The notes below the pieces were generated by a model. The model did not search any database and was not told the DNA's origin. It saw only the letters and a program-made list of their open reading frames with translations. Positions 18,387 through 34,638 of a stretch of 45,513 nucleotides of DNA are shown here, one piece after another. A program made the translations under genes and the position numbers. The DNA is from Paracoccaceae bacterium (lineage in GTDB: Bacteria; Pseudomonadota; Alphaproteobacteria; Rhodobacterales; Rhodobacteraceae), in the NCBI GenBank assembly GCA_020425085.1, contig JAGQRW010000008.1, positions 1 through 45,513 of the forward strand, written 5' to 3'. Each line of letters begins with the position of its first letter. The stretch's first letter is position 1.

Positions 18387-18650
18387 GATTGTCAAATCCC
18401 TTGTTCCACACAGGAACCTAAAGGGGTCACCAATCATGCACAATATCAATCTAAAGAGACCTGAGATCGGCCTGAAGCTCAAACCATGGCGGCATCTAGA
18501 GAGCCGCAAGGCCGCGGGTGGCCGTTGCACGCTGCGCTCGAACATCTTAGCTTAGACGACAAAGATGATTGCTTTGGGAGCGCTGCTTGACGGGTTTGGA
18601 ATTTCTTATTGTACGGTCAACTTGATGAAGCAACGAAAAACTACTGCCCA

Positions 18651-19721
18651 ATGAACACACAACAGTTGCTTTCATATAGATCGAATGGTCGCGACAACCA
18701 TTTCAATCTTTTGCGGATGCTCGCTGCCGCTGGTGTTCTGATTTCGCACGCTTACCCGATAAGCTTGGGGCCAAGCGCCATTCAGCCGCTTCAGAGCAGC
18801 CTGAAGGGAACCACCCTTGGCACGGTTTGCGTGATGATTTTCTTTGCAATTTCAGGTTTTTTCATCACCCGCAGTTTCGACCGCAAGACTTCATTGAGAG
18901 TGTTTTTCGTCGCGCGCGGTCTTCGTCTGTTCCCGGCCTTGATTGTTGTCCTGATTGTAACGCTGGTTTTCTCCAGTTTGTTCCTGACGCATGCGCCGCA
19001 GGCAGTATTTTGGGCTGCTGCTGATAGTTACTTTTTGCAAAATGTGACCCTGTTTCAGCCGAAATACGCATTGCCCGGCGTTTTTGAATCCAACCCATAC
19101 GGACCCGCCATCAATGGATCACTATGGACGTTATCCTATGAGGTGCTGTGCTATACTGGTGTCGTTCTATCCGGCCTTTTCGGCTTATTGCGCTGGAAAC
19201 GGGCCTTTGGCTGGGCGCTTTTTATCCTTGTGATCTTCTATGGTGCATCAATGGCATTCGAACTTCACCCTCGCATAGAGGCGCTAATGATGCTGGCGCT
19301 GCCCTTTGCGATCGGAATGGCGTTTTATGTCTGGCGCAACGCAATCCCCTTGTCGGGATTGCTGGCCATCGGACTTTGCGCTGTAGCGGTCTTAGCCTGG
19401 TGGACTCCTGTTTTCTTACCAGTCTTTTCTCTGGCTCTGGCATATGCAATCTTCGTTATTGGATACTCGAATAACCTGCGGGCTCTGCGCTATAACAAGC
19501 TTGGCGACTATTCCTACGGCACCTATATTTATGCATTTCCGATACAGCAACTAGTGGCCTCTATTGGAGTGGCGTCGCCCGCGGCAAATATCGCAATCGC
19601 ACTTCCTTTAACACTGATTTGCGCAGTTTTATCGTGGCATTTTGTCGAATACCCGGCGATGAATCTGCGACATCGTGCGGCGAGACCACGGCAGGTGCGG
19701 CGGGGAAAAACCACGAGATGA
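18651..19721 (+). CDS. AT3-family membrane O-acyltransferase (OafA-like)
   Basis: A 356-residue polytopic inner-membrane protein of about ten hydrophobic segments. The family R-x10-H motif is present (Arg22...His33 in 'LLRMLAAAGVLISHAYPISL'), as is 'FAISGFFITRSFDR', typical of acyltransferase-3 proteins that move acyl groups (often acetyl) from the cytoplasm onto surface polysaccharides. The start at 18651 is a plain ATG; a TTG 42 bases upstream in frame is less likely. No strong ribosome binding site is visible. No SGNH domain is fused. Codon use is more AT-rich (TTA, CTA) than in the exopolysaccharide core. It is flanked by the methyltransferase and the TTCTAA-repeat cassette. Confidence 0.88.
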   Translation: MNTQQLLSYRSNGRDNHFNLLRMLAAAGVLISHAYPISLGPSAIQPLQSSLKGTTLGTVCVMIFFAISGFFITRSFDRKTSLRVFFVARGLRLFPALIVVLIVTLVFSSLFLTHAPQAVFWAAADSYFLQNVTLFQPKYALPGVFESNPYGPAINGSLWTLSYEVLCYTGVVLSGLFGLLRWKRAFGWALFILVIFYGASMAFELHPRIEALMMLALPFAIGMAFYVWRNAIPLSGLLAIGLCAVAVLAWWTPVFLPVFSLALAYAIFVIGYSNNLRALRYNKLGDYSYGTYIYAFPIQQLVASIGVASPAANIAIALPLTLICAVLSWHFVEYPAMNLRHRAARPRQVRRGKTTR

Positions 19722-21201: not shown

Positions 21202-22170
21202 CTACACAATCAAACCCCTGAGAATTTGGGCCCGTATCCTTTCAAGGGTACGATCGATCAATGCATAGAAGGTCACAGAAACAACCATAACCAAACTCAG
21301 AATGAACAATCGTTCTGCGATTGACAGGGGGTTCATTGTTTCTCGCATCAGCGCGATGACGGGCCAGTGGGTGATATAAAGTGCATAAGAATAATTCCCG
21401 AAATGCATATCCCAATGGCCACTCATTTGACGCACATTATGGGCAATGAATGGTATCAGGCACGCAACCCAGACCATGCCGAACCAATCTTCGTGAATAG
21501 GGCTTTCGATATCGCGACGCAAAAGCGGGTGCGTTTCCGGGATTGTCCAAACTACGATTCCGACAACCAGAAACAGCACCACACCGCCTAGAGCCATTTT
21601 ATGGGAAGGAATGTAATCGCGACTCCATATGAGCGCCCCGACGACAAAGGCCGGCAGGTAAGATAAAAACGTCCAAAGGCCGTATCGCAGTTGTAAAAAC
21701 CAGCCCAACACACACAGCAAGGCCACACCAATCGCTAATGTCCCTGTACGCAACTGCATCCCAAGCACGAGCAGAAGCAGCGGTACGGCCAGATAGAACT
21801 GCATCTCGATATCGAGCGACCAAGAGGTGCCAAGGACATCGCGGCCGGTCGATGCTATCCCAAACAACGGCAGCCCCCACAGCAAAAAAGCGGGCCGTAT
21901 CTCAGAAAACATGGAATTGGCTAGCAGAGCAAGCATATAAGCCGCACAGAAAGGCAGCCAGATACGCAGGAACCGCGACAGGTAAAAGACCCCGACCCCG
22001 CCATGGGGCTGGTATTTTTCCGCGTACATACGCGTAACCCAATAGCCGCTAAGAACAAAAAAAGCAAACACTGCTGGCCGTCCGATTTCGAACGGGGTCA
22101 TATGACTCAGCACCACCAATGTTGCAAGAATCAGACGAAACAGGCCCGGGCGCAATGATAAGATTGACAT
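21202..22170 (-). CDS. AT3-family membrane O-acyltransferase
   Basis: A 322-residue polytopic protein with about ten hydrophobic segments. The R-x10-H signature is present (Arg12...His23 in 'FRLILATLVVLSHMTPFEIG') and is followed by 'FFVLSGYWVTRMY', the usual second block of acyltransferase-3 enzymes. The start at 22170 places this motif at the standard distance from the N-terminus; an in-frame upstream start adds a hydrophobic extension without support. It would transfer an acyl group across the inner membrane to a glycan. It is divergent from the adenylation-carrier-acyltransferase gene, 57 bases between start codons, so the two may share a control region. It is shorter than usual because no SGNH domain is attached. 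Confidence 0.87.
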   Translation of the reverse strand: MSILSLRPGLFRLILATLVVLSHMTPFEIGRPAVFAFFVLSGYWVTRMYAEKYQPHGGVGVFYLSRFLRIWLPFCAAYMLALLANSMFSEIRPAFLLWGLPLFGIASTGRDVLGTSWSLDIEMQFYLAVPLLLLVLGMQLRTGTLAIGVALLCVLGWFLQLRYGLWTFLSYLPAFVVGALIWSRDYIPSHKMALGGVVLFLVVGIVVWTIPETHPLLRRDIESPIHEDWFGMVWVACLIPFIAHNVRQMSGHWDMHFGNYSYALYITHWPVIALMRETMNPLSIAERLFILSLVMVVSVTFYALIDRTLERIRAQILRGLIV

Positions 22171-22227
22171 AGTCACTACAAATTGGTGTGAGATTATAAC
22201 AATAATGTACAGGAAAAAAATCAAAAA

Positions 22228-24780
22228 ATGCTTTTATGGCAGAACCTTGAGCGTTGGTCCGAGCGACAGGCTATTTTTTCAGGTCGAGATACTATCACAT
22301 ACACCGACCTCATGCGGCAAGCCGATAAATATGCTTGTATTCTTCGTAGCCGGCTACCAAAGGGAATCTCTCGACCGCTGATCCTACTTGAGGCTACCAA
22401 TGCAGTGCCTGCTATCGTTGCCTATATTGCCGCGCGCCGGGCTAAATGGCCAATAATCCTCGTGGCAGACGGGGCAGCCGGCCTCGAAACCCCTATTGCC
22501 ACGACCTATGCTCCCAACGTTGTGATCACCCGTTCCGCCGATTGGGAGGCTGTCGTGACAGATGCGTCTCAGCCTGATTTGGCCCCGGAGCTGGCCGTAT
22601 TGTTGTCAACCTCGGGCACGACGGGAGCTGCCAAACTGGTACGCCTGTCTGAAGCCAACCTGGCAGCAAATGCCGCGGCCATCACGGCTTATCTAGGCGT
22701 CACCGATACCGACCGCGCCATCACTGCGCTACCTTTTCATTATTCTTACGGGATGTCGGTGCTGCACATTCATCTTTTGGCAGGGGCGGCTCTGGTGTTG
22801 ACAGAGGACTCGGTTGTCGAGAATGCATTCTGGGACCTGGCGCGCCGCCATGCCGTAACCTCCATTTCAATGGTGCCCACTCAATATGAACTTTTAAAGG
22901 CTGCGGGATTCTCGAAGGTACAGCTTCCTTCGCTGCGCTACCTAACTCAAGCGGGGGGTAGGCTAGACCCTGATCTGGCGCAGTCTTTTGCCCAGCAGGC
23001 ATACAGGGAAGGCTGGCAATTCTTCATAATGTATGGCCAAACCGAGGCCGGCCCAAGGATCTCCTATGTCCCCCCAGAGGACGCCGCCGCATGGGGGCAT
23101 ACCATCGGCCGCCCCGTTGATGGGGTTCGACTGAACCTGATAGATCAGAATGGAGTACCTATCACGACACACAATACTGCCGGTGAACTGGTAGCCGAGG
23201 GCCCCGGCATCATGATGGGATACGCCACCTCGCGCAAAGCCTTGGCCTTGCCGCAGGGTCCTGATCGGCTACTTACCGGCGACATCGCAGAACAGCTCGA
23301 GAATGGGTATTTCCGCATTGTTGGTCGCAGTAACCGGTTCTTGAAGATCTTTGGCCTTCGCATTGGTCTGGATGAAGTGGAAACGACACTGCGCGGAATG
23401 GGGCATCCGCTCTATGCTTCAGGTACGGATCAGGGGCTTGTGCTCTTTATCCTGCCGCCCGCCAGTACCGATGCCGATCTGGACGTGATAAGGGCAAAGG
23501 CCGCCAAGCTCTTCAAACTGCCACTCACGGTCATCAAGGTTGTCCGCCTTGAGAGCCCCCCACTTTTACCCTCCGGCAAAGTGAACTATCGCAACCTCGC
23601 CCTCCAAGCCGAAGAACTGCTCGGGGCGCAGCAGGCAGCACCACAAAAACTGTTGGAGCTGTTGCAGGTGACTTTGCGGTGCGGGGATCTGGACTTGGAG
23701 CAGAGCTTTGCTGATGCCGGGGGGGACAGCCTATCTTATCTTGAGGTACAACTCTATTTATCAGACCAGATTGGAGAGGCCCCCGGCGGTTGGGAGCGAT
23801 TGCCCTTGCGAACGCTCTTGGCGCTTGAAGCGTCGGGACGCGAAACACCGCCACCCAGATGGAGCAGGACGGATGCAGACCAGATTGGGCGGGTCGCCGC
23901 TTTGCTGATGGTGATTTCTCTGCATTCAACAACATGGCCAACTGGCGGGGGTGCCTATCTGCTATTGATCCTCTCAGGCTATTCCATCGCGCGCTTTCAA
24001 AGCCAGACCTTATTTTCGGGCGATATCATGCGAGCTTGGCGCGTGATGCTGTTGCCTTTGGTAATCGGCTACTATGTCCTCATCACAGGAACGCATCTGC
24101 TCTGGGCGCCGATCAATCCGCAGTGGTTTTATCTGGCAGGTAACTTTTTAGAAACCATACACCCTAGGGGTTTAACCCCCTATTGGTTCGTCTGCACCTA
24201 TTTACAGGTTATTGTCCTTTTGTCGTTACCATTCCTGTTTACGCCTGCCCGCACTCTGATTGCCAGATCACCATTCGCGTTCGGCTTGGTTGCCCTTGCG
24301 CTTGTAGTGGTAATCACGGATGTTCTGTCGCTTGACGAAGTACTCTTCTCCGTGCGTCTCCGCCATCCGATCATGGCCCTCGAAATGTTTCTCCTGGGCT
24401 GGAGCGCTTGTTTTGCCCGGGATCTGCTGCGTAAGACCATTACGGGCGCTGCCGCTGTTTCGATCTATCTTCTGCACTGGAGCGACGTAGGCCCGCTGAT
24501 CACTTTGATGATGCTTGTGGGTATCGGTGGCATTCTGCTGGAGTTGAAGATTCCCTTGCCTACCTTTCTCGCTAAGTGGTTCTGGCGCATTGGAACAATG
24601 ACAATGTTTCTCTATCTCATTCACACCCCCGTAATTTCCATATCTTCACGCTTGCTGCCCCCTGACAACTGGTTGCAGTTCACAACTGTGGTCATCATCT
24701 CTCTGATTATTGCGTCAAGCCTTAGGGCCGGCATGAATATGATTGGAAGGCGCATATGGCGAGGCCAACATGTGATCTGA
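22228..24780 (+). CDS. Adenylation-carrier-AT3 acyltransferase fusion protein
   Basis: An 850-residue protein with three parts. (1) Residues 1-460: an ANL-superfamily adenylation domain, with core A3 at 125-141 (LSTSGTTGAAKLV), A5 'MYGQTEAG' (269-275), A7 'TGDIAE' (350-355) and the catalytic lysine Lys451 in PSGKVN. (2) Residues about 470-535: an acyl/peptidyl carrier domain with the phosphopantetheine serine Ser501 in GGDSLSYLE. (3) Residues about 550-835: an integral-membrane acyltransferase-3 domain with R-x10-H (Arg555...His566 in 'RVAALLMVISLHS') and about ten hydrophobic segments. Activation, thiolation and transfer of a carboxylic or amino acid to a membrane-side acceptor would thus sit in one chain. 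The A3 loop departs from the usual P-K-G. Acceptor (exopolysaccharide) and substrate are inferred or unknown. Confidence 0.88.
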   Translation: MLLWQNLERWSERQAIFSGRDTITYTDLMRQADKYACILRSRLPKGISRPLILLEATNAVPAIVAYIAARRAKWPIILVADGAAGLETPIATTYAPNVVITRSADWEAVVTDASQPDLAPELAVLLSTSGTTGAAKLVRLSEANLAANAAAITAYLGVTDTDRAITALPFHYSYGMSVLHIHLLAGAALVLTEDSVVENAFWDLARRHAVTSISMVPTQYELLKAAGFSKVQLPSLRYLTQAGGRLDPDLAQSFAQQAYREGWQFFIMYGQTEAGPRISYVPPEDAAAWGHTIGRPVDGVRLNLIDQNGVPITTHNTAGELVAEGPGIMMGYATSRKALALPQGPDRLLTGDIAEQLENGYFRIVGRSNRFLKIFGLRIGLDEVETTLRGMGHPLYASGTDQGLVLFILPPASTDADLDVIRAKAAKLFKLPLTVIKVVRLESPPLLPSGKVNYRNLALQAEELLGAQQAAPQKLLELLQVTLRCGDLDLEQSFADAGGDSLSYLEVQLYLSDQIGEAPGGWERLPLRTLLALEASGRETPPPRWSRTDADQIGRVAALLMVISLHSTTWPTGGGAYLLLILSGYSIARFQSQTLFSGDIMRAWRVMLLPLVIGYYVLITGTHLLWAPINPQWFYLAGNFLETIHPRGLTPYWFVCTYLQVIVLLSLPFLFTPARTLIARSPFAFGLVALALVVVITDVLSLDEVLFSVRLRHPIMALEMFLLGWSACFARDLLRKTITGAAAVSIYLLHWSDVGPLITLMMLVGIGGILLELKIPLPTFLAKWFWRIGTMTMFLYLIHTPVISISSRLLPPDNWLQFTTVVIISLIIASSLRAGMNMIGRRIWRGQHVI

Positions 24781-24986: not shown

Positions 24987-25718
24987 TCAGGCCTGGCAAA
25001 GATAGGCCATCAGCGCCTCGTAAAAGGCCGGAACGGTAATGGTTCGCATGGCGGTGTCGCTTGGGTGCAGGCCATCCGGCACCAGCGTTTTACGCTCGCT
25101 CCCGGCCAGGGCGCGCCAGTCTTCGATGGTGTCGATCAGCCCCAGGCCCTGATCGCGCGCCAGATCGCGGTAAAGCGCGTGATAGCGCGCCTGCCCCGGT
25201 CTTTCCCAGGCGTTCTGCCCCCAGGCCGGACTCATGGTTGCCAGGAACACCGCCGCGCCATGGCTTTGGGCCAGGTCGATGATGCGCTGGTGATGGCGCT
25301 TGCTGACAAACAGCGGAAAGCCGTTATAGGGCGAGGCATCGTTGCCGGAAAATTCCACCACCACGACATCCGGCTTCGGCTGCGACGGATCGGCATAATA
25401 GGCCGCCAGCGCCGCCGCCCCCCAACTGCTCGCGCCGCCGGGCCGGGCGAGGCGTCCGACCGTGATCTTGCGGCTGGGACAGGCACCGAGTTCGCCCTCC
25501 AGCGCCTCGATCCAGGTGCCGCGACTGCTGAGGCTGGTTCCCAGCACCAGCACGCGAACCGGCGCATTGGCAGGGGCGGCGAGCGGCCGGGCAGGCTGGA
25601 CGATCCGCGCCCCGGGCGGCGTTGGCGCGGCGCCGATAACCCCATAGGCCCAGGCCAGCGCCAGCGCGATCAGCCCCGCAATCACCAGCGCGCTTGTCAT
25701 CCCCCTGCCCCGGCGCAT
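24987..25718 (-). CDS. SGNH/GDSL-family hydrolase or acyltransferase, membrane-anchored
   Basis: A 243-residue protein with one N-terminal hydrophobic helix (about 8-29) and a periplasmic SGNH domain. Likely catalytic residues are Ser62 (block I, VLGTSLSS), Asn126 (FSGND) and the Asp215/His218 pair (PDGLHPSD). The start at 25718 has a strong GGAGGG 8 bases upstream. It follows the adenylation gene by 4 bases and is the last gene of an operon with a carrier protein, a GNAT and a hexapeptide acyltransferase. SGNH domains often transfer or remove acyl groups on surface glycans, so a periplasmic (de)acylase acting on the same polymer is plausible. DltD-type enzymes offer a loose analogy. Confidence 0.82.
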   Translation of the reverse strand: MRRGRGMTSALVIAGLIALALAWAYGVIGAAPTPPGARIVQPARPLAAPANAPVRVLVLGTSLSSRGTWIEALEGELGACPSRKITVGRLARPGGASSWGAAALAAYYADPSQPKPDVVVVEFSGNDASPYNGFPLFVSKRHHQRIIDLAQSHGAAVFLATMSPAWGQNAWERPGQARYHALYRDLARDQGLGLIDTIEDWRALAGSERKTLVPDGLHPSDTAMRTITVPAFYEALMAYLCQA

Positions 25719-25722
25719 GTCA

Positions 25723-27246
25723 TCACCCTCCGGCCTTGCTGTCTTCCAGCCGCTGTTTCAGCGCCTTGCGGTCGATCTTGCCGCTGGCAGACAATGGCAT
25801 CCGGTCAATGGTCACGATTCGCCGCGGCACCATATAGACCGGCAACTGGCGGCGGCAGTATTTCTTGATCTCGGCCACCGTCGCCTTGGGGTTGGTGACA
25901 AAGGCCACCACCTGATCGGCATGTCCGGTTGTCGATACCGGCCAGGGAATGGCCGCAACCTCGGGCGTATCCGCTGCCACCCGCAACACCGCGTCGATCT
26001 CCATCAGTTCCACCCGATAGCCATTGATCTTGACCTGATCGTCGATGCGGCCACGAAACAAGGCGCCGAAGCTGGCCGATGGTTCCGCCAGATCGCCGGT
26101 ACGATAAAACCGCATATCGCTATCGGCATCATGAAAGAACCGCGAGGCATTCTGTTCGGGATTGTTGATATATCCCGGCGTCACCTGACTGCCGCCAAGC
26201 AGCAATTCACCGGCGGCGGTTCCGTCCCCCTCGATGCGGTATTGCTGATCGCCGATCGGAAAGCCAAGCGGCACTACCGCCAGATCATCCAGTTGATCGG
26301 GGCGCGAGATCTCATAGGCGGTCAGGGCGATGGTTGCCTCGGTCGGGCCGTAAAGGTTCCAGAGCCGCGCCTTCGGGGCCGCCTCGGCAAAGCGCCGCGC
26401 CAGCGCCACCGCCAGCGGCTCGCCACAGAACAGCGCCAGCCGCAGACCCGGCAGCGCATCCGGGCGCAGATGCCCCAGCCGGTCACTGAATGCCGCCAGT
26501 GACGGCACCGAGAACCAGCAGGTGATGCCGCGTTCGGCAACGAAATCGACAACCTCCATCGACCGCTGTTTCGGCAGCACCGACAGTTCAGCCCCGGCAC
26601 AAAAGGTGACAAAGATGTCATGCACCGACAGATCGAACGACAAATCGAAAAACTGCGTGCAGCGATCGGTTGGCCCAAGCCCGGTAATCGGCGCTATGCC
26701 GTCGAGATAGGCCAGCAGATTGCGCTCCAGCACCCGCACCCCCTTGGGTGTGCCGGTGGTGCCCGAGGTGAACATGAAATAGGCAGTGCGATCTTCGGTT
26801 GCCGCCGCAACGTTGGCTTTCTGATCTCTTCCCGTGCCGGTGCCGCAAACCTCGCCCTCTTCGCCAAACAGCACGACCTGCACGGGCAGTTCGGCAATCA
26901 GACCAAGGGCGGCCTCCCTGGTTTCCGCCGAACACAGGATGGCCCCCAGCCCGGCAAGCCCGGCAATCGCCTGCAACCGTTCCGCCGGGAACCCCGGATT
27001 GAGCGGCACATAGGGCCGTCCGGAAAGAACCGCCGCCAGAATTCCCAGATACGAAATGCGGTCCCGCTGACAGAGGATACCAAGCGGCAGCCCCGGCGCC
27101 ACCTCGCGGTCGATCTGTTCGGCAAGCCGCCCGGCATCGGCAAACAGCGTTGCATAATCCCACTGACGGCCATCAACCCAGAGCGCGCTTGCCGTAGCGT
27201 TCCGATGGGCCGAGGCAAGCAGGCGTTCACGCAGGGTTCCGCGCAT
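25723..27246 (-). CDS. Stand-alone adenylation enzyme (amino-acid/acyl-carrier ligase, DltA-like)
   Basis: A 507-residue ANL-superfamily ligase with a full set of cores: A3 FTSGTTGTPKG (159-169), A4 FDLSFDLSVHD (200-210), A5 NLYGPTEAT (298-306), A7 YRTGDLAE (381-388), A8 'RIDDQVKINGYRVE' (400-413) and A10 SGKIDRKAL with Lys490. The FDxS form of A4, whose aspartate contacts the alpha-amino group in NRPS and DltA enzymes, suggests an amino-acid substrate. It would load the separate carrier protein encoded at 27752. The ATG at 27246 shares one base with the stop of the GNAT gene (TGATG). Organisation and length fit DltA-like ligases more than acyl-CoA synthetases. The actual substrate is not readable by eye. 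Confidence 0.87.
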   Translation of the reverse strand: MRGTLRERLLASAHRNATASALWVDGRQWDYATLFADAGRLAEQIDREVAPGLPLGILCQRDRISYLGILAAVLSGRPYVPLNPGFPAERLQAIAGLAGLGAILCSAETREAALGLIAELPVQVVLFGEEGEVCGTGTGRDQKANVAAATEDRTAYFMFTSGTTGTPKGVRVLERNLLAYLDGIAPITGLGPTDRCTQFFDLSFDLSVHDIFVTFCAGAELSVLPKQRSMEVVDFVAERGITCWFSVPSLAAFSDRLGHLRPDALPGLRLALFCGEPLAVALARRFAEAAPKARLWNLYGPTEATIALTAYEISRPDQLDDLAVVPLGFPIGDQQYRIEGDGTAAGELLLGGSQVTPGYINNPEQNASRFFHDADSDMRFYRTGDLAEPSASFGALFRGRIDDQVKINGYRVELMEIDAVLRVAADTPEVAAIPWPVSTTGHADQVVAFVTNPKATVAEIKKYCRRQLPVYMVPRRIVTIDRMPLSASGKIDRKALKQRLEDSKAGG

Positions 27247-27743
27247 CACCTGCCCTGCCCGGTTTTGCCGTCATATTCCAAAATCGCGACATTCTCGGAA
27301 AATCCCATCCTGGCCCAGAATGCCCGCGCACCTGCATTGCCGCTGAGAACCCGCAACTGAATACGCTCAGCACCGCGCCCTTCAAGCACCCCGATCGCCT
27401 GACGGCACAACTCTGCGGCAAGCCCGCCGCCGCGATGATCATCGGCAACGAAGGTTTCCTCGATTGATCCGACCGCGGACTGGCTGGCGCCCGGCACGAT
27501 CCTGATGGTGGCGAAAATATAGCCGACAAGACCGCCTTGGGATGGCGCCACCAGACAGGTGTTGCGCTTGCCCCGGATCAGGTTGGGGGTGGTTCTGGCA
27601 AGCATCGCCACCATGTCTTCAGGAATATCAAGCAGCCCGGCGGCAATCTGGCTGTCAAAAAACGCCTGCCTCAGCGCGACAAGTGCCGCCACGTCGCTTT
27701 CGGTTGCCTCGCGCAGGAGGGGCTGTTCGGAATTCTCTTCCAT
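27246..27743 (-). CDS. GNAT-family N-acyltransferase
   Basis: A 165-residue protein with the GNAT fold. The acyl-CoA binding loop is 'VADDHRGGGLAAELCRQA' (R-G-G-G-L-A variant of Q/R-x-x-G-x-G/A), and 'LRVLSGNAGARAFWARMGF' is the typical C-terminal motif. The start at 27743 is the first ATG of the frame and lies 8 bases from the carrier protein stop. It overlaps the adenylation gene by one base. In this operon it could acylate the amino group of the carrier-bound residue or an amino sugar before or after transfer. That role is inference; GNATs in glycan clusters most often acetylate amino sugars. Confidence 0.83.
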   Translation of the reverse strand: MEENSEQPLLREATESDVAALVALRQAFFDSQIAAGLLDIPEDMVAMLARTTPNLIRGKRNTCLVAPSQGGLVGYIFATIRIVPGASQSAVGSIEETFVADDHRGGGLAAELCRQAIGVLEGRGAERIQLRVLSGNAGARAFWARMGFSENVAILEYDGKTGQGR

Positions 27744-27751
27744 CCTGCCTG

Positions 27752-28021
27752 CTACCCGTTGCCCGCCGCCGCGACATGCCGCGCCACCGCCTGTTCGATC
27801 AGCGCGAGCGTTGTCAGCGTGGAAATCTCTTCATCCGCAAAGTTGAACTCAAAACTTTCCTCAAGGGCGGCAACCAGATGCATATGCCCGACCGAATCCC
27901 ATTCCGGAATCGAACCATAGCTCAGATCTTCGGTAACCTCGGACGGCTCCAGCCCAAGCTCCTCAAGCAGAATTTCGCGCAGGCGCGTGCCGATCGCCAA
28001 GGGGGTATCTTGCATATTCAT
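27752..28021 (-). CDS. Acyl/peptidyl carrier protein
   Basis: An 89-residue carrier protein with the phosphopantetheine attachment Ser43 in 'IPEWDSVGHMHLV'. The surrounding helix pattern ('LREILLEELGL', 'EESFEFNFADEEISTLTTL') is that of acyl carrier proteins. I chose the ATG at 28021 because AGGA, overlapping the stop of the upstream gene, lies 6 bases before it; the ATG at 28027 is too close to that signal. It is encoded between the hexapeptide acyltransferase and the GNAT and is the obvious partner of the stand-alone adenylation enzyme. The housekeeping ACP would not lie in this context, so it is a dedicated carrier. Confidence 0.9.
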   Translation of the reverse strand: MNMQDTPLAIGTRLREILLEELGLEPSEVTEDLSYGSIPEWDSVGHMHLVAALEESFEFNFADEEISTLTTLALIEQAVARHVAAAGNG

Positions 28022-28029
28022 ATCCATTC

Positions 28030-28470
28030 CTACCGTTTTCCGTCCCATTCCCGGATGCCCCAGGGGCCAAGTTCCAGCCCGCTTTCAATCACCCGCGCCG
28101 GATTGCCTGAAACCAGCGAACCTGACGGAACATCGCGCATCACCACACTGCCCGGTGCCACGATGCAACTGTCGCCGATGCGGACGCCCGGCAGGATGAT
28201 GGCCTGAATGCCGATATGGCAATTACTGCCGATCCAGGTGTCCACATGCCTGTTGCGGATGAAGTCATGGCAAAGGATGACGGCACGGGCACCAATCCCC
28301 GTATCCTTGCCGATATGAATGCCGGTCGGATGAGTCTTGTCGAGACTGGCTTTCAGCGAGATCCGGGTGCCGGCGCCGATATCCATTCTCCAGAGGCGCC
28401 GAAGCATTGCCACATGTGCCGCAACCAGCCACTTGCGAAGCCCGGTTCTCAACCTGGACAAAAGGGCCAT
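28030..28470 (-). CDS. Left-handed beta-helix (hexapeptide) acyltransferase
   Basis: A 146-residue soluble acyltransferase with hexapeptide repeats ('GIHIGKDTGIGARAVI', 'IGSNCHIGIQAIILPGVRIG', 'CIVAPGSVVMRDVPSGSLV') and the usual 'GNPARVI' end. The start at 28470 has GAGAGG 8 bases upstream; the longer in-frame extension lacks such a signal. Enzymes of this type (VatD/WcaF/NodL-like) O-acetylate sugars using acetyl-CoA and act as trimers. A His in 'ILCHDFI' may be the catalytic base. It lies directly upstream of the carrier protein gene in the minus-strand operon, so an alternative donor (carrier-bound acyl) is conceivable but unproven. Confidence 0.88.
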   Translation of the reverse strand: MALLSRLRTGLRKWLVAAHVAMLRRLWRMDIGAGTRISLKASLDKTHPTGIHIGKDTGIGARAVILCHDFIRNRHVDTWIGSNCHIGIQAIILPGVRIGDSCIVAPGSVVMRDVPSGSLVSGNPARVIESGLELGPWGIREWDGKR

Positions 28471-28643
28471 TATTGAAACCTCTCTGTACCACCATGCGAC
28501 ACGGTGCAAATAAACCAAATCCTGAAACAGGCCTGATATCGGGAAATGTTGACTGCCTGACCCCGGAAATATTTTTTTCACGGTCTACTCAAGACTGGTA
28601 AATGCCGCAAGCACAACCTCTCTTCCGGGTTTCCGCATCGGCT

Positions 28644-29666
28644 TCACGGCTTGAGGCTGATCAGCCCGATCCGGGCCAGCGTGTCCCTGTTCGGCCCAAC
28701 GCCAAGAATGCCGCGCAGGGTTGCGAATCCGGCGGCGCGATGCCCGCGCCACAGAAATCTGAGCGCCTTGAGAAACCCATAGCCCCAGGCATAGGGCAGG
28801 GCGTAAAAGCGATGGCGCGCCACGAACTTCATCCGGTTGCGCGCCAGAAAATAGGCCGAAAGCGGCGATGGTCCCTGATTGATCGTGGCCGAGCCGATGG
28901 AGTGGCCGCCATGATGGTGAACCGCCGCCTCGGGGCAGGGAATGAGCGGCAGATCTCCCCGGCGCAGGCACCAGTCCACCTCTTCGTAATAAAGGAAATA
29001 GCTTTCCGGCATCAGCCCGGCCCGGGCGATGAATTCACGCGATACCAACATATGCGCACCGGTCACATAATCCAGATCGGCGGGTGCTGGCGGCGGCACG
29101 TCGCGACCGATCCTGGTCATGTTGAACGGCGTGCAGATGCCACTCCAGAAATTGACGCGACCACCATCGGACTGGATCATGTGTTTTGGCGTCACGTAAT
29201 AGATGCGCCCGCCGATCACCGCAAAACGCCCGACTTCGCGGGCACGGTTGACCAGGATTTCCGCCGTCCGGTTTTCCACCATGCAGTCGGGGTTGAGGAT
29301 CCAGAAATATTCGACCTCCGGCATCGCCAACAGGCTGCGAAGGCCGGCATTCACTCCGGCGGCAAAGCCGGCATTCCTGGCCAGGCTGATCAGCCCGACC
29401 TTGCCCTCAGGCAGGTGTTCTATGGTCTGGCTGTCCTCGACAAGCCCGACCGGGCCGTGCGGAACCGGCTGAAACGGTTTGCCGCTGCCGTCAAAGGTGC
29501 TACCGCCCCTGGCCCAGCCCCGAATGGTGGCAAGCGTGTCATCCTGCGAAGCATTGTCAACGACGACGATGCGTAGGTCGGCTCCTTGGCTGGCCAGCAG
29601 GCTTTCCAGGCAATCAACCACGATATCCGCGGCGTTATATGTGACGATCACCACCCCGACAGCCAT
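28644..29666 (-). CDS. Family 2 glycosyltransferase (rhamnosyltransferase-like)
   Basis: A 340-residue GT2 enzyme starting MAVGVVIVTYNAADIVVDCL. The nucleotide-binding segment 'LRIVVVDNASQDDTLATI', the 'YFWILNPDCMVENRTAEIL' block typical of dTDP-rhamnosyltransferases, and 'YYEEVDWCLRRGDL' with the probable catalytic base are all present. A C-terminal hydrophobic/basic region (from about 285) likely associates with the membrane. It would add one sugar of the repeat unit in the cytoplasm. It lies 173 bases upstream of the hexapeptide acyltransferase on the same strand and 166 bases downstream of a methyltransferase gene. No dTDP-rhamnose synthesis genes are visible here. Confidence 0.88.
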   Translation of the reverse strand: MAVGVVIVTYNAADIVVDCLESLLASQGADLRIVVVDNASQDDTLATIRGWARGGSTFDGSGKPFQPVPHGPVGLVEDSQTIEHLPEGKVGLISLARNAGFAAGVNAGLRSLLAMPEVEYFWILNPDCMVENRTAEILVNRAREVGRFAVIGGRIYYVTPKHMIQSDGGRVNFWSGICTPFNMTRIGRDVPPPAPADLDYVTGAHMLVSREFIARAGLMPESYFLYYEEVDWCLRRGDLPLIPCPEAAVHHHGGHSIGSATINQGPSPLSAYFLARNRMKFVARHRFYALPYAWGYGFLKALRFLWRGHRAAGFATLRGILGVGPNRDTLARIGLISLKP

Positions 29667-29832
29667 AGGATATGCCTACCTCGTTACCATGCCCGGCGCG
29701 AATAAGATCAACCGGTCGCGGGCGTCGCCTGCTGATAACTTGGCCGGGCCATGCTGACAAGCAGGGTTTCCGCCAGGGTTCCTGTCCGCCACGGCCCTGT
29801 GGCAGGCGGCTCATTCCGGTTTCAGTGCATTG

Positions 29833-30504
29833 TCAGGCTGCCGGTTTCCTGACCACGAAGACGACAAATGGCCATAGCGGAATTCCCACGCGCCTTTTGA
29901 ACATGACATCACAACCAGCCTGTTCCAGTGAGGGCAAAACGGACACGGACCGGCATCCGAGGGATATCGACGGAATCTGCCATATGACGCTCTCGATCCT
30001 GCCTGCCAGCCACTTCACCACCGGATTTTCCGGATTGGTCGAATGCGCAACACCGATAAGACCACCGGGGCGGGTCACCCGGTAAAGTTCTCTTGCGCCC
30101 TTGGCGGGATCATATAGCGGACACATGCTGTAGGTGGATAGAACGACATCAAAGCTGTTATCCTCGAACGGCAGCGCCAGGATATCGCCGGTCCTGAATT
30201 CGACCTGATCGCCGAAACCGGCCTTGGCAAGGCGCTGCCTTGCAACCGCCAGCATTGCATCGCTCATGTCAAACAGCACCGCTCTGCCGGATGGCCCGGC
30301 CCTTTCCAGAGCGAGCAAGGCTGTCGAACCGGTGCCGGCACCACAATCGAGTATCCTGTCGCCGGGGCTGACCGCTTGTTCCGCCAGGATTCGCCGGCCA
30401 CGCTGGTCCGATCCACCCGTAAGGAAGGCATGCTGAAAATCGTACCGCCCGGCAACGCGGTCATACACCGCTCTCAATGCCTGCTGGTCCATTGCGTGTC
30501 GCAT
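29833..30504 (-). CDS. Class I SAM-dependent methyltransferase (UbiE/COQ5-like)
   Basis: A 223-residue methyltransferase. Motif I is 'ILDCGAGTGSTALLAL' and the acidic residue after strand 2 is in 'AVLFDMSDAMLAVARQRL'. 'DILALPFEDNSFDVVLSTYS' (post I/II) and 'ELYRVTRPGGLIGVAHST' (motif III region) complete the fold. The N-terminal 'VYDRVAGRYDFQHAFLTGG' is like that of UbiE and related small-molecule methyltransferases. Two ATGs (30504 and 30492) are possible. It is the first gene of the minus-strand modification operon. The substrate is unknown; quinone methylation is unlikely in this plasmid context, so a sugar or lipid precursor is the better guess. Confidence 0.82.
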   Translation of the reverse strand: MRHAMDQQALRAVYDRVAGRYDFQHAFLTGGSDQRGRRILAEQAVSPGDRILDCGAGTGSTALLALERAGPSGRAVLFDMSDAMLAVARQRLAKAGFGDQVEFRTGDILALPFEDNSFDVVLSTYSMCPLYDPAKGARELYRVTRPGGLIGVAHSTNPENPVVKWLAGRIESVIWQIPSISLGCRSVSVLPSLEQAGCDVMFKRRVGIPLWPFVVFVVRKPAA

Positions 30505-30740
30505 GCGTGATCCCGCTCCGCCTGTGCTGATCTATATATCCCGATATCCCGCATTTTCCAGATGAACCAAGATTTCTGATCCCAGCTCAAAGCAAAAACG
30601 GGCAGCCGAAGCCGTTCGTTGCGTTCATGCCGCCCCGATGGCGGCGCAAGACCTTTCTTCCCCTGCCTTTGGCGAATTTCCCCGACCACCCCCGCTTTGC
30701 CACGTTGCAACCGACTGATTTCTGGCGCAAAGCTGAAGCG

Positions 30741-31424
30741 ATGACAAAACCGCCAGACGCCCGCCCGGATCCGCAAACCAGCCCGTCCGCCCTGCCCGCG
30801 CCGCGCCGCCGCGTAACCGCCGTGCTGGGTCTGATCCTGATCTGCTGTCTGATCGAGTTCACCCTGACCCTGTCGGATCACGGCCTGATCGGGCCGTCGC
30901 ATCTGCGCGGCCTGGCCTATCAGAACGGCGGGTTCTGGACCGGGCTTTTGCACAACTGGCAACCGAACTTTGCCCTGCAACCGGTGACCATGTTCTTCAC
31001 CTATGCCTTTCTGCATGCGGGATTACTGCACCTGTCGATGAACATGATCACTCTCTGGTCGATCGGTCTGGCCATTACCGACCGGGTCGGGCAGTGGCGG
31101 TTTCTTCTGATCTATCTGGTGTCGCTTCTGGGCGGTGCCATCGCCTTTGGCCTGTTGTCCAGCGCCTTGCGTCCGATGGTCGGCGCCTCGGGGGCGCTGT
31201 TCGGGCTGGTCGGGGCGTGGCTGGCCTGGGAAACCATCGAACGTCTGGCCGAGAGGGCGCGGCTCAGGCCGGTCCTGTGGTCGGTGTTCTGGCTGACCAT
31301 GCTGAATGTGGTCCTCTGGTGGATCACCGGCGGACAACTCGCCTGGGAGACCCATCTGGGTGGCGCGCTGGCCGGTGCGCTGGTGGCACTGGTGATCCGC
31401 CCGGCCGATCTGGCCACCGGCTGA
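30741..31424 (+). CDS. Rhomboid-family intramembrane serine protease
   Basis: A 227-residue polytopic protein with six hydrophobic segments. The rhomboid signature is complete: the catalytic Ser150 in 'GASGALFG', His205 in 'HLGGALAG', and His97/Asn101 in 'LLHLSMNM' forming the oxyanion region. The start at 30741 puts a short charged cytoplasmic tail before the first helix; upstream in-frame sequence is implausible. It stands alone on the plus strand, with the methyltransferase gene diverging and the dehydrogenase gene converging 6 bases away. Its substrate is unknown. It is not a rhombosortase partner, as no GlyGly-CTERM protein is present. Cleavage of tail-anchored surface proteins in this locus is possible. 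Confidence 0.9.
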   Translation: MTKPPDARPDPQTSPSALPAPRRRVTAVLGLILICCLIEFTLTLSDHGLIGPSHLRGLAYQNGGFWTGLLHNWQPNFALQPVTMFFTYAFLHAGLLHLSMNMITLWSIGLAITDRVGQWRFLLIYLVSLLGGAIAFGLLSSALRPMVGASGALFGLVGAWLAWETIERLAERARLRPVLWSVFWLTMLNVVLWWITGGQLAWETHLGGALAGALVALVIRPADLATG

Positions 31425-31430
31425 TCCCCG

Positions 31431-32756
31431 TCAGGCCTTGGTCACATTGTCCATTGGCAGGCCGCGCCGGGCAAAGGCGTTGCGGGTGTCAATCACCGGA
31501 ATGTTCAGCCGCGCCAGCGCCGCATAGTCGATATTGTCGTGATCGGTGGCGATCAGCACCGCATCGAAATCATCGGCCCCGACATTTTCCAGCGCCACCG
31601 AGTTCCGGCCGAAAAGTTCCGGGTAATCGCGCATCTTTGGCACTGTCGGCACATAAGGATCGTGAAACGCCACCGCCGCACCATGGCCAAGCAGGATCTG
31701 CATCAGCCGCGCCGAGGGGCTTTCGCGCATGTCCGGCACGTTCTTCTTGTAGGCCATGCCGATCAGCAGGATGCGCGCGCGGCTGAGCGCGATACCGGAT
31801 TTCCGGTCGAGAACCTGTCTGAGGCGCGCCACCACATGATCCGGCATATGGGTATTGATCTCACCCGCCAGTTCGATGAACCGCGTCGACAGATCGTATT
31901 CCCGCGCTTTCCAGGTCAGGTAGAACGGGTCAATCGGGATGCAATGCCCGCCAAGCCCCGGCCCCGGATAGAACGGCATGAAGCCGAACGGCTTGGTGGC
32001 GGCACCGTCGATCACCTCCCAGACATCTATGTCCATGGCCTCGAAGATCACCTTCAGCTCGTTGACCAGCGCGATGTTGACGGCGCGAAAGATGTTTTCG
32101 GTGATTTTCACCGCTTCCGCCGTCTGGGTGGTTGAAACCGGCACCACCTTGTCCACCACGATGCCGTAGAACGCCTGCACCAGTTCGCCGGCCTCGGCCC
32201 CGTCGCCGGCCACGATCTTGGCAATGGTGGCGGTGCGGAAATCGGCATTGCCGGGGTCTTCGCGTTCCGGCGAAAAGCCGACAAAGAAATCCTTGCCCGC
32301 CTTCAGCCTTGAGCGTTCCAGGATCGGCGTCAGCACATCCGCCGTGGTGCCGGGAAAGGTGGTGGATTCCAGCACCACCAGGGTTTCCGGCGTCAGATGC
32401 CGGGCAATCATCGCCGCGGTTTCGGTGATATAGGAGAGATCCGGTTCGCGGTGGCTGGTCAGAGGGGTCGGCACGCAGATCACGATGACATCAAGCGCCG
32501 CCAGGCGGGCGAAATCCGTGCTCCACGTCACGCTGCCCGCCGCGTTCAGTTCCGCCAGATCGCTGTCGCTGACCGCCTCGATATAGCTTTTGCCGGTCTT
32601 CAGGCGGTCGGTTTTCTCCGCGTCGATATCCAGGCCAACGGTTGCAAGCCCGCGTTTGGCGGCAGTGACCGCCAGCGGCAGGCCGACATAGCCAAGGCCG
32701 ATAATGCCGATATGGGCCTGCCGCGACCTGATCCTGTTCAATAATGTACTGGTCAA
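31431..32756 (-). CDS. Nucleotide-sugar 6-dehydrogenase (WbpA/WecC/Ugd family)
   Basis: A 441-residue NAD-dependent dehydrogenase that oxidises a UDP-hexose or UDP-N-acetylhexosamine to the uronate in two steps. It shows the Rossmann motif 'IGIIGLGYVGLPLAVTAAKR' (16-35), 'STTFPGTTADVL' and 'FSPEREDPGN' (161-170), and the catalytic Cys272 in 'GLGGHCIPIDPFYL'. The GGHCIPIDPFYL form is characteristic of UDP-GlcNAc/ManNAc dehydrogenases rather than of UDP-glucose dehydrogenases. It should supply an acidic sugar for the polymer. It precedes no epimerase gene here. Spacing to the rhomboid gene is 6 bases tail to tail, and the PssE-like gene lies 113 bases upstream on the same strand. Confidence 0.92.
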   Translation of the reverse strand: MTSTLLNRIRSRQAHIGIIGLGYVGLPLAVTAAKRGLATVGLDIDAEKTDRLKTGKSYIEAVSDSDLAELNAAGSVTWSTDFARLAALDVIVICVPTPLTSHREPDLSYITETAAMIARHLTPETLVVLESTTFPGTTADVLTPILERSRLKAGKDFFVGFSPEREDPGNADFRTATIAKIVAGDGAEAGELVQAFYGIVVDKVVPVSTTQTAEAVKITENIFRAVNIALVNELKVIFEAMDIDVWEVIDGAATKPFGFMPFYPGPGLGGHCIPIDPFYLTWKAREYDLSTRFIELAGEINTHMPDHVVARLRQVLDRKSGIALSRARILLIGMAYKKNVPDMRESPSARLMQILLGHGAAVAFHDPYVPTVPKMRDYPELFGRNSVALENVGADDFDAVLIATDHDNIDYAALARLNIPVIDTRNAFARRGLPMDNVTKA

Positions 32757-32869
32757 CTGAATTTCCTAATCTGCATGAACCTGATCGGGGGATCTGCAAG
32801 CAGCCCCACCGTCACCATGGCCGGTTCTCTTTGGTTTCTGTGGCGCATTTGTGGCCCCCGGCATGATTT

Positions 32870-33388
32870 TCAACTTTTTTCCGGCAGCGGTTTACCGGCA
32901 AGAAACCGGCCGATTGCCATGGTCAGGCGCGGTTCCGCCACCCGGGATATGCCGATACCACCCGCCCCCGCCAGCCCGCTCACCGCCTGATCCAGAACCA
33001 CCGGCAACCGGGTTTCATCCTCGGCCACGAAAATCCCCGGCCGGTTTCCCAGCCGTTGCACCGTGGCATATTGATGGTCGTTGCGGGTTTCGCGCAGATG
33101 CCCGCGACGCGGCAGCACCACGATCGGCTTGCCCAACTGCAAGGCGGTGATGATCGAGCCCATGCCGGCATGGGAAATGATCAGATCGGCTCGGCTGATC
33201 CGATCGCCGTATTCCTGTGGCGTGAGCCGCCCGACCCATTTGAAATTGCCGGGCGTATAGGCCGCCGCCCCCTGATCGGTGATCTGCCCGAACAGATCGC
33301 CGCCGTGCCCGCTGGCAGCGCACCAGGCATCCACCGCCCGGACCAGGCGCGGAAACGGTTCATGGGTGCCGATGGTCAGAAAGATCAT
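32870..33388 (-). CDS. pssE: Catalytic subunit of split glycosyltransferase (PssE/Alg13-like)
   Basis: A 172-residue protein equivalent to the C-terminal, nucleotide-sugar-binding half of a GT28-type enzyme: 'MIFLTIGTHEPFPRLVRAVD' at the start and 'RADLIISHAGMGSIITALQL' with 'GKPIVVLPRRGHLRETRNDH' as donor site. It pairs with the membrane-anchoring half encoded just upstream; the two overlap by 4 bases (ATGA). The Alg13/Alg14 and rhizobial PssE/PssD pairs work this way; PssDE adds glucuronic acid to the second sugar of the repeat unit. That fits the acidic-sugar dehydrogenase next door, but donor specificity cannot be read from the sequence. Confidence 0.86.
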   Translation of the reverse strand: MIFLTIGTHEPFPRLVRAVDAWCAASGHGGDLFGQITDQGAAAYTPGNFKWVGRLTPQEYGDRISRADLIISHAGMGSIITALQLGKPIVVLPRRGHLRETRNDHQYATVQRLGNRPGIFVAEDETRLPVVLDQAVSGLAGAGGIGISRVAEPRLTMAIGRFLAGKPLPEKS

Positions 33389-33843
33389 ATCACCGACCCC
33401 AGGAATGCCGGGCCACCCTCACCGCTCAGATGTTCCCACTGGGTCAGCCACAGATCGGCATATTTGCGCACCTGCTGGCCGGACAGCGACATCTGCTCGG
33501 CATTGGCGATGCTGTCCACCCAGACGGTGCGCGCGCCAAACAGCTTGCCCAGCCTCAGCGCGAAATACCCGGGCGCTGCCCCGGTGGTGATCACCGCATC
33601 CGGGCGCACCGTGATGAAGATCAGCAAAAGCTGCACCAGTTGTTTCAGAAGGCGCAGCTTCTGCCAGCGGTTGGCCTCGACGATCACCCGGAAATCCTCC
33701 GCTGCCAGGTCCTGCCGCAACCCCGGATCGGTGCTGACATAGCTGACCACCAGATTGTTCCAGGCAGGTGCCAGACGCATCAGCTGCACCCAGTGACCGC
33801 CCGCCGATGCCACCGCCAGCACCCGGGTTGGCCGCATGCTCAT
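33385..33843 (-). CDS. pssD: Membrane-anchor subunit of split glycosyltransferase (PssD/Alg14-like)
   Basis: A 152-residue protein with an Alg14-like fold: 'RVLAVASAGGHWVQLMRL' (glycine-rich first loop), a hydrophobic segment 'LLKQLVQLLLIFITVRPDAV' (about 63-82) for membrane association, and 'TTGAAPGYFALRLGKLFGAR'. It would recruit the catalytic PssE-like partner, with which its gene shares an ATGA overlap, to the membrane-bound lipid-linked acceptor. Its own start at 33843 overlaps the stop of the deacetylase gene by 4 bases in the same way. The three genes are therefore translationally coupled. Confidence 0.86.
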   Translation of the reverse strand: MSMRPTRVLAVASAGGHWVQLMRLAPAWNNLVVSYVSTDPGLRQDLAAEDFRVIVEANRWQKLRLLKQLVQLLLIFITVRPDAVITTGAAPGYFALRLGKLFGARTVWVDSIANAEQMSLSGQQVRKYADLWLTQWEHLSGEGGPAFLGSVI

Positions 33844-34556
33844 CGCCCTGCCCCGCTGCCGGTCAGATCACCGAACCGCATCAGCCGAAAGCCGTTGGCG
33901 GCGGCGAAATCAATCAGCCGCTGCGTCAGATCAAGCACATATTGCGCGTGTTTCTCTGGCTCCGGCCCCCGCCCGGCACGGTCGGTATCATGCATCAGGA
34001 CCACCCCGCCGCCCATCGCCTCGACATGCGCGATCACCTCGTCGATCGGGCGGCGGTTCCAGCTGTCGCGGCTGTCCACCGTCCAGAACGCGTGGCGCAT
34101 GCGCTGAACCGCCGCCTGAAGCAACCCCGCCAGCGTGACCTTGCCATAGGGCGGGCGGAACAGCGCCGCATCGGCGCCGAACCCCGCCAGCGTCCGGCGG
34201 CCCGCCGCGATGTCGCGCCACACCGCCCAGGGGGCGGATTTCCAGGCGTTCAGATGGTTCTGGCTGTGACTGGCGATTTCATGCCCGCCCTGACGGTAGC
34301 GTTCCACCATCTCGGGATGTCTTTCGGCATTCCGGCCCAGCATGAAAACCGTCGCCCGTGCCTGGTGCCGGTCGAGAAGATCAATCAGATCAGGGCTGAG
34401 TTGCCCGCTTGGGCCATCGTCATAGCTCAGGACAATGGCCCGCATCTGGCGGCACATCCGGGCAAGCCGCCTTTCCTCAAGGCGGCGACAGGCAAACGGC
34501 ACGGCAAACCAGAGGAAACCGAACGCAGCACAGGAAATCACAATCGTCATGAACAT
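33840..34556 (-). CDS. NodB-type polysaccharide deacetylase
   Basis: A 238-residue enzyme with an N-terminal membrane anchor or signal (residues about 3-20) and a carbohydrate esterase 4 domain. Motif 1 is 'LSYDDGPS' (Asp pair), motif 2 'HSQNH' (zinc histidines), motif 3 'FRPPYGK' and motif 4 'WTVDSRDSW'; 'VVLMHDT' gives the late histidine. All metal and catalytic residues seem present, so it is probably active on N-acetyl groups of the polymer. The start at 34556 follows GAGG by 8 bases; an ATG two codons later is an alternative. It is the first gene of the coupled deacetylase-PssD-PssE unit. Confidence 0.88.
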   Translation of the reverse strand: MFMTIVISCAAFGFLWFAVPFACRRLEERRLARMCRQMRAIVLSYDDGPSGQLSPDLIDLLDRHQARATVFMLGRNAERHPEMVERYRQGGHEIASHSQNHLNAWKSAPWAVWRDIAAGRRTLAGFGADAALFRPPYGKVTLAGLLQAAVQRMRHAFWTVDSRDSWNRRPIDEVIAHVEAMGGGVVLMHDTDRAGRGPEPEKHAQYVLDLTQRLIDFAAANGFRLMRFGDLTGSGAGR

Positions 34557-34638
34557 CCGTCCGGCCTCATTACTGGGGGTGGAGTATCCAGAATGGTGAT
34601 TCCGGTCAAGCCGCCGCCAGTGATCCTGGTGCGCAAAC

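Follow-up and report, generated by a model that had tools for sequence, protein, structure and literature searches.

The window analyzed in this study is a stretch of 45,513 nucleotides (positions 1-45513 of its contig) from a Paracoccaceae bacterium with a 3.34 Mb genome. It contains exopolysaccharide (EPS) genes, i.e., those for a sugar transferase, Wzz, Wzx, a UDP-sugar dehydrogenase, an Alg14/Alg13-like pair and a polysaccharide deacetylase, as well as a gene for a Wzy-like protein that scores just below the model cut-off (29.7 bits). Surrounded by these genes lies a single unbroken open reading frame (ORF), running from ATG to stop, whose product carries an adenylation (A) domain, a carrier protein (CP) domain and a membrane acyltransferase-3 (AT3) domain on one chain. 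This A-CP-AT3 fusion is the main subject of the analysis; its parts and neighbors are listed in Table 1.

An earlier note on this DNA had placed the three domains on one chain, with key residues Lys451, Ser501, Arg555 and His566, and Pfam searches and alignment of relatives bore out all four. AMP-binding (best stretch, residues 114-332; 3e-44, 151.8 bits, cut-off 29.9) and Acyl_transf_3 (PF01757, residues 556-831; 1.6e-9, 37.7 bits, curated cut-off 31) scored above their cut-offs; PP-binding (PF00550, residues 473-516; E 0.0015, 19.2 bits) was 1.6 bits under its cut-off of 20.8. The carrier contains a GGDS motif with the modifiable Ser501, and since this Ser, like Lys451, is invariant among relatives, the marginal carrier call is settled. 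The AT3 domain also has an RXXR motif (R602-A-W-R605) at the cytoplasmic face of the third transmembrane helix (TM3). Its AlphaFold2 model (residues 536-850) is confident, with a predicted local distance difference test score (pLDDT) of 92.1, a predicted TM score (pTM) of 0.91 and 11 helices of at least 12 residues. A Foldseek search with this model gave no PDB match at E<=0.001 and one viral-library match (1.9e-4, TMq 0.59). Of the findings that the earlier note had said would speak against the fusion (no PP-binding match near Ser501, no AT3 match, or two genes fused by a frameshift or assembly error), none was observed.

Table 1. Features of the A-CP-AT3 fusion gene, its neighbors in the window and two related loci (aa, amino acids)
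Feature	Coordinates	Strand	Basis
A-CP-AT3 fusion protein	22228..24780	+	850 aa, single open frame; Pfam, alignment of relatives
ANL adenylation domain, ~residues 1-470	22228..23637	+	Pfam AMP-binding; A3 LSTSGTTGAAKLVRL, A5 MYGQTEA
Lys451 codon, catalytic Lys of ANL domain	23578-23580	+	
Carrier domain, ~residues 473-535	23644..23832	+	PP-binding near cut-off, relatives
Ser501 codon, phosphopantetheine site	23728-23730	+	
AT3 membrane domain, ~residues 550-847	23875..24768	+	Pfam, AlphaFold2, motifs
Arg555 codon; His566 codon	23890-23892; 23923-23925	+	R-X10-H, TM1
Separate AT3 acyltransferase, divergent neighbor	21202..22224	-	Pfam 3.3e-21; R-X10-H, RXXR
Second separate AT3 acyltransferase	18609..19721	+	Pfam 8.5e-24
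SGNH/GDSL esterase-like protein	24987..25718	-	Lipase_GDSL_2 2e-15
Discrete amino-acid-type adenylating enzyme, DltA/NRPS-like (NRPS, nonribosomal peptide synthetase)	25723..27249	-	FDLS in A4 (by reading)
GNAT N-acetyltransferase	27246..27743	-	Acetyltransf_1 2.3e-14
Free-standing carrier protein, 98 aa	27752..28048	-	EWDSVGH; PP-binding 22.7 bits, above cut-off 20.8
Hexapeptide-repeat acyltransferase-like protein	28030..28581	-	Hexapep 2.8e-11
Glycosyltransferase	28644-29666		Pfam
VPLPA-type exosortase XrtD	3874-5463	-	684 bits
A-CP-TM-SGNH fusion and adjoining MBOAT gene	L069:10004-14074; L116:9857-14006		

The A domain reached 134.9 bits with TIGR01733 (NRPS amino acid adenylation; cut-off 317.4), and the protein reached 139.5 bits with TIGR03098 (exosortase A-associated acyl-CoA ligase; cut-off 592.4). 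DltA was absent from the best 25 of 87 families, the 25th of which scored 69 bits (DltA cut-off 559.9).

Relatives were found in Pseudomonadota, Actinomycetota and Cyanobacteriota. We aligned the window protein with 96 of them, each encoded in one open frame of at least 750 aa, to give 97 rows. Lys451 is Lys and Ser501 is Ser in every row, and Glu273, Asp352 and Arg367 of the A domain are also invariant (97/97). Arg555 is retained in 95 rows, His566 in 96 and both jointly in 95, the exceptions being loci L069 and L116. The same domain order, for which the earlier note proposed a search in other genomes, is widespread: in 94 of the 96 relatives the alignment extends over both AT3 residues, Arg and His. 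The spacing from the carrier Ser to the TM1 Arg is 46-80 residues (median 50, 95 rows). When 39 members were scanned singly (E<=0.01), all matched AMP-binding; 35 matched PP-binding, leaving 4 below the threshold on the carrier, and 31 matched Acyl_transf_3, leaving 8 below it on the AT3 domain; the carrier of L116 scored 33.4 bits against PP-binding. A regular-expression check recovered the motif pair in 87/97 rows, the misses being eight rows whose GGDS-like pattern was not matched and two without AT3. We take these alignments to mean that a conserved, cross-phylum A-CP-AT3 family is real, with predicted A, carrier and AT3 domains intact in one frame across phyla. Its function may differ between branches, and the iron link described below is the most surprising part. 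The missing P-K-G of the A3 loop, read earlier as a possible sign of altered substrate range, turned out to be a family trait, the Gly slot being Leu in 59/97 rows and Pro being present in 57/97. An assembly or frameshift artifact joining two genes has a negligible probability. A split version does exist in genome G013 (L127:8795-11768), where A-CP and AT3 occupy two overlapping frames adjoining a sugar transferase gene (a split form or a frameshift), but all 96 relatives chosen for the alignment have a single ORF of at least 750 aa, and we rejected the artifact for this reason.

The relatives came from several searches. An order-level search covered 292 genomes, the window's own included, and nine of these (G000, G091, G285, G181, G025, G026, G078, G188 and G248) gave matches of at least 33% identity over more than 700 residues. 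The nearest relative is in G091 (39% identity). Fused-length frames with shorter matches occur in G154 and at a second place in G078, and full-length relatives at 24-26% identity in G171, G155 and G225. The best matches in two same-genus genomes (1.8e-17 and 7.5e-20) are at the level of generic adenylation domains, which would be in line with a mobile gene. Among the 30 loci from this search (L005-L034, with L005 being the window), 12 were aligned (L006-L010, L013-L015, L017-L019 and L028); the alignment excluded the other 17, which were generic A domains or else partial, split or interrupted by stops. Locus L012 (G287:C104:66-2361) is a relative with 52% and 41% identity and in-frame stops, i.e., a decayed copy or one with sequence errors. 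In a plasmid collection, 53 records contained a match spanning 80% or more of the query; among the 40 records listed, 37 were from Rhizobium and one each from Rhodococcus, Pseudarthrobacter and Arthrobacter, and the annotation was mainly 'AMP-binding protein'. A scan of genome contigs supplied the best 80 loci of at least 579 stretches, a number that includes A-domain-only matches and is no family count. All 80 had a full-length frame, 78 with the AT3 Arg and His and two without. The tree used below comes from FastTree alone, and the branches of the window and L006 were flagged in it as long. No published description of an A-CP-AT3 fusion was found in full-text literature, judged by titles and abstract starts of mostly open papers.

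The two members without AT3 are informative about the C-terminal part. In Photobacterium sanctipauli (L069) and Massilia niastensis (L116), a single hydrophobic stretch and an SGNH/GDSL domain come after A-CP, and the adjacent gene encodes an MBOAT protein. A match to the MBOAT marker was found only at these two among 96 loci. MBOAT-SGNH pairs are described as known envelope acylation machinery (PMC12148441). Since the A-CP module is paired with either membrane machine, the C-terminal part of the window fusion would be its membrane transferase, and the comparison points to this role. The two arrangements share a homologous A-CP module and nearly the same pocket, but differ in that membrane transfer in L069 and L116 falls to a separate MBOAT together with SGNH rather than to AT3. 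In evolution, one machine for membrane acyl transfer thus appears to have been exchanged for the other while the loading module was kept. A further variant was seen in genome G164 (L126:9303-12297), in which a lone family A domain is followed by a LuxE-type acyl-protein synthetase (Pfam) and lies with a GNAT-like protein in a capsule-export-like locus (the latter two labels by reading).

We then considered the substrate. Pocket positions were mapped by hand to PheA numbering, with Asp235 placed via an alignment with LgrA. Asp235, the anchor of the alpha-amino group, corresponds to Ser173 in the window protein and to Ser (49) or Cys (48) across the 97 rows, and because of this replacement we judge an alpha-amino acid unlikely as substrate or donor. 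The amino acid option of the earlier note is thus not supported. Other pocket positions are nearly constant (out of 97 rows: Tyr174, 93; Ser177, 94; Thr240, 91; Ala242, 94; Met268, 94; Ala or Pro276, 94; Arg277, 94), giving the family signature S/C-Y-S-x-T-A-M-A/P-R-K. Departures from these residues fall mainly in L018, L019 and L028, the rows at 24-26% identity; in the AT3-less members, Thr240 is replaced by Ala in both L069 and L116, and Tyr174 by Phe in L069. The pocket is nearly invariant between the actinobacterial and other branches. A test of eight pocket positions gave 0.00025 against random positions rather than against other A-domain families and, with position 278 mis-mapped (215 for 214), is indicative only. 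The near-constant pocket suggests one acid or a narrow class of acids across phyla, and the constant pocket Arg would suit a polar acid. At a few positions the pocket resembles the aryl-acid code, but the best isochorismate synthase score in the genome was 162.6 bits (cut-off 224.8), and we therefore do not claim 2,3-dihydroxybenzoate as the acid here.

Several known systems can be compared with this arrangement. The Dlt system (DltA, DltC, DltB and DltD) similarly combines ANL activation, a carrier that docks at the cytoplasmic side of a membrane transferase and an extracytoplasmic acceptor (PMC11035591). However, its components are separate proteins, DltB is an MBOAT rather than an AT3 protein, and the substrate is D-alanine, whereas the fusion chain contains no amino-anchoring Asp and neither an MBOAT nor an SGNH domain. 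Lipid A glycylation by AlmE-AlmF-AlmG follows the same logic of adenylate, carrier and transferase, but with three proteins, another transferase family and an amino acid substrate. Aas-type acyl-[ACP]-phospholipid O-acyltransferases (PRK08633, PRK06814; ACP, acyl carrier protein) likewise unite acid activation with a transferase in one chain, but have a different transferase domain and order and no carrier on the chain; the window fusion scored 102 bits against these models (cut-off 1221). AT3 proteins (PF01757) such as OafB and OatA share R-X10-H with the fusion and may also share a fold of about ten helices and glycan acylation, but use acyl-CoA donors. Fusion partners named for AT3 in the literature consulted are SGNH, alanine/serine racemase and NRF, plus 'other domains' in Eukarya; the term 'AMP-binding' is absent from two papers searched for it, and 'adenylation' from a third. 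We regard the fusion as what is probably a new, AT3-based variant of Dlt/Alm activate-carry-transfer systems.

We propose, with a probability of about 0.6, that the protein is a one-chain activate-carry-transfer acyltransferase, similar in logic to Dlt and Alm, whose AT3 transferase is fed by a tethered thioester. The A domain would convert a carboxylic acid, which is unlikely to be an alpha-amino acid, to its acyl-AMP and load the acid onto the phosphopantetheine arm at Ser501 of its own carrier. The carrier, separated from TM1 by a short linker, could then dock where its own AT3 domain opens to the cytoplasm. The acylated arm would thread into the AT3 pore where acyl-CoA would otherwise insert its pantetheine part and, near His566 and towards the outer face, the acyl group would pass to an extracytoplasmic acceptor, here most likely the exopolysaccharide of the locus or its lipid-linked unit. 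A donor made and tethered in cis, as already proposed in the earlier note, is the natural reading of this domain order and differs from an AT3 fed with acyl-CoA. In the Dlt precedent, DltC docks at the cytoplasmic face of DltB and places its Ser roughly 20 A away from the active His, approximately the reach of the arm (PMC11035591). The EPS genes around the fusion gene, XrtD included, also favor the proposal, as do a PF01648 transferase for the arm encoded in the genome, the exchange of AT3 for SGNH plus MBOAT in L069 and L116 and the split arrangement of G013. For AT3 proteins the donor is held, in a review, to be acyl-CoA rather than ACP (PMC9558356), and in a model of OafB acyl-CoA occupies the pore so that His25 can reach the thioester, with Arg14 and the second Arg of RXXR (Arg74) at the CoA 3'-phosphate (PMC9833829). 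If the carrier arm replaces CoA, contacts with the CoA phosphate should be relaxed. RXXR was indeed found in the expected stretch of 14/14 ordinary AT3s scanned versus 53/95 fusion proteins, and this reduced regularity is only suggestive of carrier feeding. Many bacterial surfaces carry AT3 proteins, and the question of their donor, acyl-CoA or carrier, becomes testable in a single protein when A, carrier and AT3 are on one chain.

The following points weigh against this proposal. The RXXR scan used no alignment, and it lost 16 of 30 control AT3s because the motif filter missed their TM1. The window protein itself retains RXXR, and the R-X10-H Arg (Arg555, equivalent to OafB Arg14) is kept in the 95 rows noted above. 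The full-length AlphaFold2 model (pLDDT 87.6, pTM 0.62) is confident in the domains and not in their mutual packing, and thus does not establish docking of the carrier onto AT3. The arm tunnel is blocked in resting DltB structures, so this precedent would require a movement not yet seen (PMC11035591). The PF01648 transferase for the arm is the sole match of its kind in the genome, a 148-aa frame that is AcpS-like by size; in the Dlt system, DltC is modified by AcpS (PMC11035591). As for the acceptor, EPS markers adjoin 6/96 relatives, and the nearest relative (G091) has none within its 20-kb stretch. Because RXXR is kept in the window and Arg555 nearly everywhere, acyl-CoA may still be used, and the fusion could be an acyl-CoA ligase joined to an ordinary AT3, with acyl-CoA diffusing to the pore and the carrier being vestigial or a scaffold. 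The A domain scores similarly against acyl-CoA ligase and amino acid adenylation models, as this explanation would allow. We nevertheless consider it unlikely, as an invariant Ser501 is not expected of a vestigial carrier, the carrier accompanies the A domain into the MBOAT/SGNH context of L069 and L116, and RXXR is less regular among the fusion proteins.

A different line of evidence came from the actinobacterial relatives. FbpA- and FbpB-type genes of a ferric-type ABC transporter occur together in 30 of the 84 loci fetched with flanks (80 genome and 4 plasmid loci, with flanks reaching 10-12 kb where contigs allow), and FbpA lies within 2.6 kb of the fusion gene in all of these. Such loci include L036, L049, L054, L056, L057, L059, L060 and L099, the last having fusion, FbpA, FbpB and ATPase genes (ATPase by reading) in this order and one direction. 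The Fbp names rest on BLAST among loci, general solute-binding-protein Pfam matches and the RefSeq name 'iron ABC transporter' in R. fascians. Using an IdeR/DtxR-type consensus (up to 5 mismatches, within 150 bp upstream), we found a box upstream of 25/48 actinobacterial fusion genes versus 22/674 neighboring genes, and 14 of these 22 neighbors were FbpA genes. A box and/or FbpA was present at 43/48 actinobacterial loci. The iron label was assigned to 31/97 rows, 29 of which fall in the actinobacterial branch of the tree; the other two are L064 and L047. Judged by these sequences, the actinobacterial relatives look iron-regulated, which points to an unsuspected function for a gene mostly labeled 'AMP-binding protein' in the plasmid records listed.

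It is possible, though on balance doubtful, that the family primarily makes an iron-binding molecule, such as a siderophore or surface chelator, with the A domain activating an iron-ligating acid, AT3 joining it to an amine or hydroxyl, and the window copy redeployed for polysaccharide. The proximity of FbpA and FbpB, the enrichment of the box and the near-invariant pocket would fit, as would a gene for a TonB-dependent receptor that immediately precedes the fusion gene in Marinibacterium (L043:7482-9452), a member of the window clade. However, the box was found in 0/36 non-actinobacterial fusion genes; the window lacks it (10 mismatches) and likewise has no FbpA/FbpB-like stretch (tblastn, 1e-3). 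Fbp-like genes occur in 2/36 non-actinobacterial members, both weak: L064 at 27% identity, and L047 with a permease alone, 4.4 kb away, at 29%. Scans with loose patterns for Fur (0 versus 7), RirA (1, the window with a loose pattern, versus 14) and Zur (3, in the window, L039 and L091, versus 23) gave no clear excess; an Irr-like pattern was found in 4/37 non-actinobacterial fusion genes (window included) versus 11/523 other genes, three of the four being close kin. As these scans were unconvincing, we do not claim iron regulation outside Actinomycetota. The lack of an isochorismate synthase above cut-off in the window's genome also argues against this explanation, and surface remodeling can also come under iron regulation. 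A single class of acid may be used for decorating EPS in some members and for taking up iron in others. A bolder and rather improbable extension of the tethered-donor proposal combines these features: a tethered acyl-carrier, not CoA, would pass through the pore and one acid would be used throughout, by a one-enzyme, IdeR/DtxR-controlled chelator synthase acting with FbpABC in ferric uptake in Actinomycetota and for the same, possibly metal-binding, EPS group in Alphaproteobacteria.

With regard to the acceptor, the context of the window itself makes EPS the likeliest candidate there. The exopolysaccharide decoration suggested in the earlier note is accordingly plausible here, where EPS genes surround the fusion gene, and need not be a family rule: by marker genes, the EPS label applies to 7/97 rows. 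For the neighborhood labels, the markers searched by BLAST were genes of the window itself plus a few more, and the absence of a marker is weak in the 29/96 relatives with a flank of less than 5 kb on at least one side. The window clade consists of seven rows: the window, G091, Defluviimonas L041, Tabrizicola L039, Phenylobacterium L042, Marinibacterium L043 and Roseivivax L044. L039 lies in a polysaccharide region with five EPS markers and L043 has two markers; no EPS marker was found in the searched flanks of L041, L042, L044 and G091. Outside this clade, L045, L046 and L048, which belong to another clade, adjoin EPS markers, and L117 has one. The label was not clustered on the tree beyond chance (7 changes versus a shuffled mean of 6.9). 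EPS as the acceptor is thus inferred from the setting of the window itself.

The fusion gene, on the plus strand, sits amid minus-strand genes, with an AT3 gene on its left and genes for the SGNH protein, adenylating enzyme, GNAT protein, carrier and hexapeptide transferase on its right. A discrete activate-and-carry set therefore adjoins the fused one; its adenylating enzyme and free-standing carrier were not mentioned in the earlier note. The adenylating enzyme scored below both TIGR01733 (300.8, cut-off 317.4) and TIGR01734 DltA (267.7, cut-off 559.9). The minus-strand set at 24987-28581 looks like a separate (N-acyl)aminoacyl decoration pathway. Alternatively, the fusion and the discrete genes flanking it (21202-22224 and 24987-28048, minus strand) could form one multi-component acyl/aminoacyl EPS decoration system with chemistry shared between carriers. 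This appears quite improbable, as the fusion gene lies on the other strand, its G+C content is lower (55.0% versus 62.3% for 24987-34658; window mean 57.9%), and its pocket lacks the amino-anchoring Asp that the neighbor has in A4 (by reading). Moreover, a marker search placed the discrete set beside 0/96 relatives, a similar adenylating enzyme being found only at L073 and L116 and an AT3 only at L039.

Finally, the window appears plasmid-like because it contains a RepM-like replication gene (34639-36096; 51.6 bits, below the model cut-off of 250) and a gene for a ParA-like ATPase (36397-37911). A VPLPA-CTERM protein is encoded at 39597-40274 (minus strand), on the same plasmid-like contig as XrtD. 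At the edge of the EPS locus, an ORF at 1086-3854 (plus strand) encodes a 922-aa protein that is, by reading, beta-helix-like with C-terminal GGxGxD calcium-binding repeats.

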